Of a stretch of 64,000 nucleotides of DNA, positions 8,067 to 51,897 are shown in pieces. Made by a program: the position numbers and the translations under genes. This DNA comes from Candidatus Sumerlaeaceae bacterium (GTDB lineage: Bacteria; Sumerlaeota; Sumerlaeia; Sumerlaeales; Sumerlaeaceae): contig JAOAAY010000007.1 in NCBI GenBank assembly GCA_026418615.1, positions 62,001 through 126,000 on the forward strand, in the 5' to 3' direction. How positions within the stretch are numbered: the stretch's first letter is position 1; every line of letters starts with the position of its first letter. The notes below the pieces were generated by a model, which was not told the DNA's origin, did not search any database, and saw only the letters and a program-made list of their open reading frames with translations.

Positions 8067-9110
8067 CTATGAAAAATGCCGGAATGTCTGGTCGGGAGGC
8101 GTCCAGATTTGGCCCGACGCCGATCGCAGCACCACAGTGCCGGCCGCGTCGGTCACACGACCGATGAGCGAGACCGGTACGCTGCTGCCTGCCGCGGCCA
8201 GCGCGGATGCTAGTGCATCCGGACTTGCTGCGGTGCAGAAAAGCAGTTCGTACTCCTCTCCGCTAAAAAGTGCCAGTTCCACCGGATCCCTGTCGGCGCA
8301 CCGACAATACTCGCGAAGTTCCTCGCAGACAGGAATTCGGTCCGACTCAATTTCGAAACCGATGCCGCTTGCTTGCGCCAACATGTGCATCTCATTGTAA
8401 AGGGAATCACTGATATCTACCATGGCCAGATCTGGGCAAACGGCTGTCAGGATCTGTCCAAGCAACGGTCTCGGTTCTGGTTTCAAGTGGCGCTCGAGGA
8501 GGCGTAGTCGCACGGAATCGGCACACGGATTCACGAGGGGAGCCCCGGTCAGGATCAAGAGTCCGGCGGCGCTCGATCCGAGATGGCCGCTGACATAAAC
8601 ATTCTGTCCAGGCTTAGCGTTTGATCGCAGAGGGATAGCACGCCCGGCGGGGACGCTGCCAACGGCCGTGATTGAAATTGTCAGCGCGGAGAGTCGGACC
8701 GTGTCGCCTCCGACGAGCACAGCCCCCCAGCGCATCGCTTCCTCGCGCATGCCCTCGTAAAGCGAGAGCAGGCTCGTCACAGTCTGTGTCTGTGGGACGG
8801 CTAGTGATACCAGCAGGTAGCGCGGGCGCGCTCCCATGGCGGCGAGATCGCTAATATTGGCAGCCACGGCTTTGTGGCCCAGGCGTCGCCAGTCTGTATC
8901 GCTGTTCGCAAGAAAATGCGTTCCCGCCGCCAGCATGTCTGTCGTGACCACATCGTGCCAGACGCCGTCCGGTTCGCGCGCAATGACGGCGGCATCGTCA
9001 CCGATGCCAACTACCACATCGCCCGCCGAGGCTGCAACATAGGGCGCCAGCGCCGCAATGAGAGCGCGCTCGCCGATGTCTGCAACAGTGGTTTCCCCGC
9101 TTTGCGACAC
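8067..9110 (-). CDS. thiL: Thiamine-monophosphate kinase
   Basis: GIGDDAAVI, TTDMLAAGTHFL, VGGDTVRLS, DISDSLYNEMHMLAQAS motifs; adjacent to thiE. Confidence 0.93.
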   Translation of the reverse strand: MSQSGETTVADIGERALIAALAPYVAASAGDVVVGIGDDAAVIAREPDGVWHDVVTTDMLAAGTHFLANSDTDWRRLGHKAVAANISDLAAMGARPRYLLVSLAVPQTQTVTSLLSLYEGMREEAMRWGAVLVGGDTVRLSALTISITAVGSVPAGRAIPLRSNAKPGQNVYVSGHLGSSAAGLLILTGAPLVNPCADSVRLRLLERHLKPEPRPLLGQILTAVCPDLAMVDISDSLYNEMHMLAQASGIGFEIESDRIPVCEELREYCRCADRDPVELALFSGEEYELLFCTAASPDALASALAAAGSSVPVSLIGRVTDAAGTVVLRSASGQIWTPPDQTFRHFS

Positions 9111-9130: not shown

Positions 9131-9805
9131 TCAGGCTGCGCGGCTCTGTTCAAAGATTTGGCGCAGATGCGCGGCGCGAGCAGTGATGTCACTGGCCGAC
9201 ATCAAATCCCGTATGATCGCGATGTTGTGAGCACCTGCCGCCACGACCTCCGGCACACGGTCGGCAGTAATCCCACCGATTGCCACCAAGGGCAGGGACA
9301 CTGTTAGGCGCGCCCACCTCACCATCTCCGTCCCGACGACAGGCCATGGAGAACTCTTAGTGTTTGTTGCGTACACCGGACCGACGCCAATATAGTCCAC
9401 GGGCAGCAACTGAGCCATTAACGCCTGCTCGCGCGTGTGCGTGGAAAGCCCGATGATCATGTCAGGCCCGACAATGTCGCGGGCCACTTCGACGGGGATA
9501 TCCTCCTGCCCGAGATGGACGCCATCCGCGTCCGTCTCAATCGCCAAATAAGGATTGTCATTGACGATGAAGGTCGCCCCAAATTGCCGCGTAAGTCGCC
9601 GGATTTCCCGTCCAACCGCGACCAAATCCTCAAAGGCCATGTTTTTGTCGCGCAGTTGAATGACTCGAATACCACCTTTGAGCGCTGCCGCGACCGTCTC
9701 GAGCATCGGGCGATTTCCCGAAGCAACTCGGTCGGTGATGGCATAGATGCCCCACTGGCAGCGAGTCCAGCGGTCAAAAGACCGGGCACGAGGAAGTCTA
9801 TCCAT
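9131..9805 (-). CDS. thiE: Thiamine-phosphate synthase
   Basis: YAITDR...IQLRDKNM...FIVNDNPYLAIETDADGVHLGQEDIPV...DYIGVGPVYATNTKS; the ORF extends to 9859 with alternative starts. Confidence 0.94.
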   Translation of the reverse strand: MDRLPRARSFDRWTRCQWGIYAITDRVASGNRPMLETVAAALKGGIRVIQLRDKNMAFEDLVAVGREIRRLTRQFGATFIVNDNPYLAIETDADGVHLGQEDIPVEVARDIVGPDMIIGLSTHTREQALMAQLLPVDYIGVGPVYATNTKSSPWPVVGTEMVRWARLTVSLPLVAIGGITADRVPEVVAAGAHNIAIIRDLMSASDITARAAHLRQIFEQSRAA

Positions 9806-9864
9806 GAAGGCAACATGACCGTTGGCGAAAACCCCATGCAAACGCAAATCGGGCATCATTCCCC

Positions 9865-49259: not shown

Positions 49260-50385
49260 CCGTTGAAATGTGCGTCATCTTGTCGGCCAGTTGGAACTTC
49301 TTGACCGCCGACGCACTGTCACCGCCGCCGATGACAGTTGTGGCCCCGGACGAGGCTAACGCCTCAGCAATCGCGCGCGATCCGCCAGCAAACTCGTCTA
49401 TCTCAAAAACGCCCACCGGGCCGTTCCAAACAACCGTTTTCGCCTGACGGATCTCGTTTACAAACATTTCGATGGTTTTCGGGCCGATATCCACACCCAT
49501 CCATCCGTCAGGGATGGCGTTGGAGGGGAAGACCTCTCGCGCGACGGAAGCGTCCGGTTTTTCAGTAGACTGGCAGGCCAGCGAATCCACCGGTAAAAGG
49601 AGTTTTTTGCCTGCGGCTTTGGCCTGATCCAAAGTTTTCAGAGCCACCTCAAGGGTTTCCGGCTCAAAGAGCGAGGAGCCGATCGAGCCGCCCTGCGCCT
49701 TGACGAAGGTGTAGGTCATGCCCCCGCCCAGCAACAGCACATCCACCTTGGTCAGCAGATTGGCGATGACGGCAATTTTCGAAGAAACCTTAGACCCGCC
49801 TAAGATCGCAACAAACGGCCGCTGCGGATTGCTCAGTGCGTCATCAAGATATTTGAGTTCCTTCTCCACAAGGAACCCGGCCACGCTGTCCTTGAGGTGC
49901 TTGGTGATGCCCTCCGTTGAGGCATGAGCACGATGGACTGACCCAAAAGCGTCCTGCACGAAAATGTCTGCCAGAGAAGCGAGTTTCTTGGAAAACTCCG
50001 GGTCGTTCTTTTCCTCCTCCGGGTGGAAGCGCACATTCTCCAGCAGCATGACATCGCCGTCTTTCAACTCAGCCGCGAGTTTCTCCGTCTCCGGACCAAT
50101 GCAGTCGGGTGCCATGATGACCTCTTTGCCAAGGTGCTCGCTCAGACGCTTGGCACAGGGCGCAAGGCTCATCTCCGGCACGGGTTTGCCTTTGGGTCGC
50201 CCCAGATGCGACGCTAAGATGACACGCGCGCCCGCATCTATGAGATACTTGATCGTTGGCAGCGACGCTTTGATGCGCTTATCATCCGTGATGACTCCAT
50301 TCTCGAGCGGCACATTGAAATCCACGCGAACGAACACGCGCTTGCCACGCAGGTCGGTCAGATCGGTAAGAGTTTTCTTGCTCAT
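49189..50385 (-). CDS. pgk: Phosphoglycerate kinase
   Basis: [68 protein letters not shown]. Confidence 0.98.
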
Positions 50386-50550
50386 GGCTGATCCCTGTCC
50401 ACAACATTTGTGGGTGAATGGCAACCACTTAGCGCGGCTGCAAGAGATGAGCGTCCGACGACACACCGCCGTATCAATGAAAAAGCGACTCCTGCACTCT
50501 TTGCCCACGCAGTTCGCACATTTGCACCGCTGCGTAGTATCGCATTGCGT

Positions 50551-51897
50551 ATGACTCAGTTTGCCGTTAACGAGCCGGCTGAAAAGCCCGCAGCGTTCTA
50601 CCGGCCCGACATGGCCCGTTTGCGCCAGATTGCGGCTGCGGCTCCGGTCGCCGACGAGACGATGGCCAGCCATATTCTCCGGCGGGCAGGGGAGCCGCTG
50701 GCGCTTGCAGATTTGGCCTCGCTGCTGCATGGCGTTTTATCCGGTGACCGTCGAACCACGGTTGCCGTGTTACAGGCCTCAGCACGAATTCGCCGACACT
50801 TGTTCGGCGATTGGGTCGTTCCTATGGCTCCCGTGGAGATTGCCAACACCTGTGCCAGCGACTGCCTGTTTTGTGGTTGGCGGCTTTCCAACCGGGCGAT
50901 GAAACGCATGCGACTGCCCGTGGATCTTGCCCTTCTGCAGGTCGAGTATCTGCTCGATCTGGGGATCCATTACATTGAGTTCGTCAGCGGGGACGACTTG
51001 CGCGCCGTTCGCGAGACGCTGCCCGTGCTCATCCGCGAGACACGCGATCTATTCCGCCGCCGCGGTGTGGATGGTAAAGTCTCGTTCTGTACCCTCGCCC
51101 TGACACAGGTGCAGTACGGTGCGCTTCGTGAGGCCGGAGCAGACAACATGATTGTCTGGCAGGAAACCTACGATCCCACAGTATTCCGGCAACACATTGT
51201 CGGGGGACCGAAGGCATTCGGAATAGGCGACGATTGGAAAACCGTTCCCGACGGTGACGGCTGTCAGTTTCGCATCGAGTCTCAGGAGCGCGCGCTCCGC
51301 GCCGGTCTCGAGGTCGCCGTCGGCAGCATGCTGGGCTTGAATCCCGATATTTGCACGGAATTTCTCGCGACTGTTGAACACGCGCGCTATCTTGCCGCCG
51401 AGTACGGTGCCTCGCCAGATCATCCCATCATCATCGGCATGCCCGTGTGGAACCCCATTACCACCCACGAGACGGACCTGCGGCCCGGGGCGATGCCTTC
51501 GCTGGCGCAGGTCTTTCCGGCTCTTGCGGCGCTCTATCTGCTTGCCCTCCCCGACCGCGGCACTTGGGTATTTCCGAATTGCCGCGTTCCCATGCGCACT
51601 CAGGTGGAGGCTGTGCGAGCCGCAGGAGCATTTACCTCGACCGAGGTGAAACTGGGTCCGGGAGGGTATCTGCCGTCAATCCTGCGCCGTCTGGACGCAT
51701 CTGATCCGGCGGCCGCAACAAAACTGAGGTCGCGGGTGCTTTCGTTGCTGCGCGAGGTCGAGGGGGATGCGGAATCTCTCGAACGCGCGCTTGACGAACG
51801 GGAACAGTTCGTCCATCATTATCATGCCCACGAAGTGTATGCCCGCGAACTCCGGCGAAACGGCCTGCGCCTCGCAAGCGGGACCCGCATCCCGTAG
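50551..51897 (+). CDS. Orphan radical SAM protein of the ThiH/HydG/BioB-like superfamily
   Basis: CX3CX2C motif [23 protein letters not shown] at the GE-motif position; C-terminal LGPGGYL similar to the ThiH PGGY region. Confidence 0.8.

Follow-up and report, generated by a model that had tools for sequence, protein, structure and literature searches.

The question raised by this locus is what an enzyme resembling the radical SAM proteins ThiH and HydG does in a place where none of the usual partner genes surround it. The gene lies at 50551-51897 on the plus strand of the window, by which we mean the whole stretch of 64,000 nucleotides analysed here, taken from a 92% complete assembly of Sumerlaeota, an uncultured phylum. 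Its open reading frame runs from an ATG at 50551 to a stop at 51897 with zero internal stops and encodes 448 residues, and the translation carries the CX3CX2C, IEFVSGDD and PGGY motifs where an earlier note on this DNA had located them. The exact start is uncertain, since the alignment with orthologues begins only at about residue 12-16 and a longer reading frame opens at an in-frame GTG at 50410. Four orthologues were found, with identities of 58-62%. Between the window gene and these orthologues, third codon positions differ at frequencies of 0.63-0.71, about 2-3 times those at first (0.29-0.39) or second positions (0.23-0.26). The identity and the excess of third-position differences together argue for constraint at the protein level; judged from these sequences, the reading frame is a real conserved gene and not a chance one.

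The immediate surroundings of the gene give little away. It runs divergently to pgk (PF00162, 540.6 bits; likely ATG near 50385), beyond which lies a comF-like gene with a phosphoribosyltransferase domain; downstream of it is a gene for a TPR-repeat protein, and a GH38 enzyme is also among the neighbours. The thiE (9131-9859, minus strand) and thiL (8067-9110, minus strand) pair is about 40 kb away, and Pfam matches to TMP-TENI and AIRS/AIRS_C agree with the identities that the earlier note had given to these genes. No thiG, thiS or hyd genes were found near the radical SAM gene in the window, and no TPP riboswitch was found beside it. In the relatives, the orthologues are accompanied by a putative methyltransferase gene, a PRPP-synthetase-type gene, a GHMP-kinase gene, a GT28 glycosyltransferase, an ABC-F-type ATPase and PriA. 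These are housekeeping neighbours, with none in common with the window, and the inference of an operon or a partner was dropped.

By NCBIfam scores, the protein comes closest to ThiH (TIGR02351), with 96 bits, 284 short of the equivalog cut-off of 380. The other models scored lower: HydG (TIGR03955) at 64.3 bits against 312.15, HydE (TIGR03956) at 44.3 against 254.6, PylB at 39.5, and NosL (TIGR04158) at 25.7 against 400. On the ThiH model, every comparison protein scanned, whether ThiH, HydG or intermediate, reached at least 266 bits. The Pfam Radical_SAM score, 21.4 bits, is under its cut-off of 29.5; membership of the radical SAM enzymes is indicated by CX3CX2C in all five orthologues, the window protein included, and by the best fold matches in the PDB, which are radical SAM enzymes. 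The AlphaFold2 model behind these matches (pLDDT 74, pTM 0.81) was built from an input alignment of only 5 sequences, and its confidence is low near the cysteine motif and at residues 217-231, 301-307 and 363-366. It was best matched in Foldseek by HydG, ThiH, HydE and NosL, with the best E-value for HydG, and the predicted fold is ThiH/HydG-like.

The phylogeny points to a separate group. The orthologues formed one clade (100/99) outside the ThiH clade (99/99) and outside HydG, in a tree whose long branches leave their exact position unsure. Topology tests rejected their grouping with HydG (p-AU 0.029) and did not reject a grouping with ThiH, such as a sister position (p-AU 0.10). A second ThiH-like radical SAM protein of very divergent sequence (L011:1375-2898, minus strand), encoded by genome G018 from the same class, grouped with the orthologues at 97/97 but with a branch length of 2.93, and the tree was rebuilt without it on account of long-branch attraction. 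Taken together, the case is well supported for a new radical SAM subfamily that stands beside ThiH, HydG, HydE and NosL and belongs to neither ThiH nor HydG. The earlier note had offered a choice between a divergent tyrosine-lyase-like enzyme and a new subfamily; the placement of the orthologues apart from canonical ThiH and HydG bears out the latter, and the former fits poorly with the changes at most residues of the L-Tyr site described below.

The subfamily is also narrowly distributed. Among 61 genomes searched, orthologues are confined to one Sumerlaeota family, where five genomes out of eight carry them (G000, the window's own, and G001, G002, G004 and G007). The named relatives of the window's genome include candidate division BRC1 bacterium HGW-BRC1-1 and Candidatus Sumerlaeota isolate QZM1.54. 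In a profile search of 386 genomes, a sample of the known bacteria, the five carriers scored 530-850 bits and all others about 100 bits or less, the next-best proteins that were scanned being HydG, ThiH or intermediates between them according to NCBIfam. The subfamily is thus lineage-restricted within this sample. A gene upstream of pgk in G003, which synteny had marked as a possible orthologue position, is not an orthologue.

The residues of the active site tell us more about what the enzyme may do. The motif CASDCLFC (50851-50874, within a stretch of 12 residues), the predicted [4Fe-4S]/SAM site, contributes three cysteines, C101, C105 and C108, that are invariant in 26 aligned proteins. IEFVSGDD (residues 142-149; 50974-50997) is the counterpart of the GE motif (SAM amine). 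The unusual GD that replaces GE, remarked on in the earlier note, is indeed present, with D148 at a position that is mostly Glu in ThiH and HydG, but it is not unique, as two intermediate ThiH/HydG-like references also have Asp there. In ThiH, the amine and carboxylate of L-Tyr are contacted by R300, the carboxylate by E158, and the phenolate by T299, S318, S321 and R306, and residue 80 is also marked as discussed (PMC9046217). Their counterparts were located by aligning the window protein with members of the same family. In the window protein, Y80, E158, T299, R306 and S321 become E96, C180, C344, Q351 and V366, and R300 and S318 are kept as R345 and S363, so that two of the six L-Tyr-site residues (E158, T299, R300, R306, S318, S321) remain. 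The substrate-site changes are identical in every orthologue that covers those positions; R300 and R306 are kept throughout the ThiH and HydG references, and E96 stands where all aligned ThiH and HydG proteins have Tyr.

Most of these positions (C344, R345, Q351, S363 and V366) fall in the substrate-site region at 51562-51669, which is bounded by stretches of 10 and 11 residues. The GPGGY motif is at residues 369-373. From the position of R300 to PGGY, the window protein aligns with ThiH and HydG without gaps. Besides the three cysteines, QE.Y and R345 are conserved. Two elements set the subfamily apart from every aligned relative: an insertion of 14 residues that follows GPK, lying in a segment of 23 residues (51205-51273) in which GPK..DW..G..FR is conserved, and a conserved C-terminal element of 14 residues (51793-51834). 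The C-terminal cysteines of the second HydG cluster are absent; C344 is the last cysteine of the window protein, and the HydG CTxCYR region is missing from it in the alignment. An amino-acid-binding Arg that is retained and a tyrosine signature that is lost suggest that this is not a canonical tyrosine lyase. From the conserved Arg, we consider it likely that the protein acts on an amino acid through R345, and the way in which this amino acid is bound probably differs from that of L-Tyr in ThiH, because the phenolate-binding residues are changed.

A possible clue to what such an enzyme could supply came from the thiamine genes of the whole genomes. The view of the earlier note that the gene has no pathway neighbours is right for the locus and does not extend to the genome, in which thiC, thiG, thiS, thiE and thiL are present and only a recognised source of dehydroglycine is missing. 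Its remark that thiG, thiS, hydE and hydF are lacking concerns the vicinity of the gene; the search of the genome gave thiG, thiS and thiC, a group A6 [FeFe]-hydrogenase, and no ThiO. ThiC, ThiG and ThiS are present in all eight family genomes, hence in all five carriers. Thi4 is absent from the family genomes and so is ThiO, to which there are short N-terminal matches only; no DAO-type oxidase scored above threshold except one in G005, and this candidate substitute for ThiO is most like glycerol-3-phosphate dehydrogenase. Canonical ThiH occurs only in G006 (495 bits), which shows no orthologue, an anti-correlation that rests on this one weak case, G006 being only 66% complete. The thiS-thiG-thiH cluster of G006 has a TPP riboswitch upstream (L022:6084-6190, plus strand), and the thiG loci examined in other members of the family yielded none. 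A T-box leader was seen in G003 (L065:9044-9285, plus strand), just over the Rfam gathering score.

The five carriers are therefore left with no known dehydroglycine source, apart possibly from the window protein and its orthologues. Similar gaps have been described elsewhere: 89 gut genomes, 62 of them from Bifidobacterium, have thiG but no ThiH or ThiO, and the route is unknown (PMC6593275). The gap alone does not point to the radical SAM gene, since G003 (92% complete) and G005 (94% complete) share it, with thiC, thiG and thiS (thiG loci L065 and L067) and no orthologue, ThiH, ThiO or Thi4.

We tentatively put first, at somewhat less than even confidence, the reading that the window protein is an alternative source of dehydroglycine for ThiG and thus for vitamin B1, because it offers one specific mechanism with positive evidence. 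On this reading, SAM would be cleaved at the [4Fe-4S] cluster, and Arg345 (R300 in ThiH) would hold an amino acid whose amino group comes under attack from the 5'-deoxyadenosyl radical. A bond at the alpha carbon of that amino acid would be broken, and the product, presumably dehydroglycine (2-iminoacetate), would be passed to ThiG and so make up for the missing ThiH, ThiO and Thi4. In its fullest form, this would be a new radical SAM lyase that converts some amino acid, but not tyrosine, to the dehydroglycine that ThiG needs, a source to set beside ThiH and ThiO, and this form we hold to be rather doubtful. Speaking for the thiamine role are the NCBIfam, PDB-sequence and Foldseek matches, all of which point to ThiH/HydG, the conserved cysteines, QE.Y and R345, and the thiamine gene content of the five carriers and of G006. 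Against it are the gap without the gene in G003 and G005, the five residue changes, the TPP riboswitch lacking nearby, and the linkage of the gene to thi genes, which was found in no carrier genome.

Much of what weighs against the thiamine role speaks for a lyase of amino acids, or a related radical SAM enzyme, in some other pathway of cofactors or natural products unconnected with thiamine. This is a fair competitor, almost as likely as the thiamine role and likewise short of even: it would account for the altered substrate site, with E96 in place of the Tyr, for the missing thi linkage and riboswitch, and for the sister genomes that have the same gap and no orthologue. It is weakened by the want of partner genes, the neighbours being different in the window and the relatives and housekeeping in the latter, and by a thiamine gap common to all five carriers. 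If the enzyme were instead a divergent but canonical ThiH, cleaving L-tyrosine to dehydroglycine and p-cresol, the best NCBIfam score, the ThiH grouping that was not rejected and the retained R300 and S318 would be explained; with five substrate-site residues changed in the same way in every covering orthologue, a score so far under the equivalog cut-off, and an insertion and C-terminal extension of its own, we find this improbable. The loss of R306, the mark of tyrosine lyases, and of the carboxylate-facing Glu, both absent in NosL as well (PMC9046217), together with the conserved Arg, brings to mind a NosL-like enzyme that would cleave an aromatic amino acid, e.g. Trp, at the C-alpha/carboxyl bond instead of C-alpha/C-beta. 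The low score on the NosL model and the gapless R300-PGGY stretch, in which the one-residue insertion distinguishing ThiH from NosL appears to be retained, make this quite improbable, and the tree took in no NosL sequence.

The remaining candidate is a maturase resembling HydG, which would serve the group A6 [FeFe]-hydrogenase that four of the five carriers possess. Domains of [FeFe]-hydrogenases were detected in G000, G001, G002, G003 and G007 and are absent from G004, G005 and G006; group A6 proteins above the NCBIfam cut-off are encoded in the window's genome (L099:5470-7299, G000:C35), in G003 (L100:8161-9951, G003:C56) and, as one of its proteins, in G002 (L104:8243-10273, G002:C8). The G000 and G003 hydrogenases have TSCSP for TSCCP and MGCPGGC for MACPGGC. 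HydF is absent from all eight family genomes, no HydG was found in them with the ThiH profile, a profile that gives HydG proteins high scores and does register a match in Thermotoga maritima, and HydE is apparently absent as well, going by the orthologue and ThiH-profile searches. A vacant maturase role and a best fold match to HydG would suit this reading; however, G004, a single contig, carries the radical SAM gene and no [FeFe]-hydrogenase, and G003 shows the reverse. On this gene distribution and the missing C-terminal cysteines the HydG role was ruled out as highly improbable, in keeping with the rejected HydG grouping. The maturation of these A6 hydrogenases is a puzzle separate from the radical SAM gene.

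Many bacteria have ThiG with no recognised source of dehydroglycine, and a new lyase, if true, would make the question testable, at least in Sumerlaeota. The subfamily also keeps the amino-acid-binding Arg and changes most of the residues responsible for tyrosine selection, and knowing its substrate would therefore help to explain how these enzymes come to differ in the substrate they choose and the bond they break.

Set beside ThiH (2-iminoacetate synthase; 7PD1), the window protein shares the fold, CX3CX2C, R300 and S318, QE.Y, PGGY and the position of the GE-type motif. It differs in Y80, E158, T299, R306 and S321, in its insertion and C-terminal extension, and in having its gene outside any thi operon, with the partners thiG and thiS present in all carriers but unlinked. 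With HydG (4WCX, 4RTB) it has in common the fold, a similar length, the conserved Arg and the best Foldseek E-value; unlike HydG, it lacks the C-terminal cluster cysteines and has altered Tyr-site residues. HydE (3CIW) resembles it in the radical SAM barrel and, in the PDB alignment, in having Glu ahead of the cysteine motif where the window protein has E96; a long branch lies between the two, and only their N-terminal halves are similar in sequence. NosL (3-methyl-2-indolic acid synthase; 4R33) has a similar fold and likewise lacks the Arg306 of tyrosine lyases; unlike NosL, the window protein keeps the length of ThiH and HydG near strand 8.
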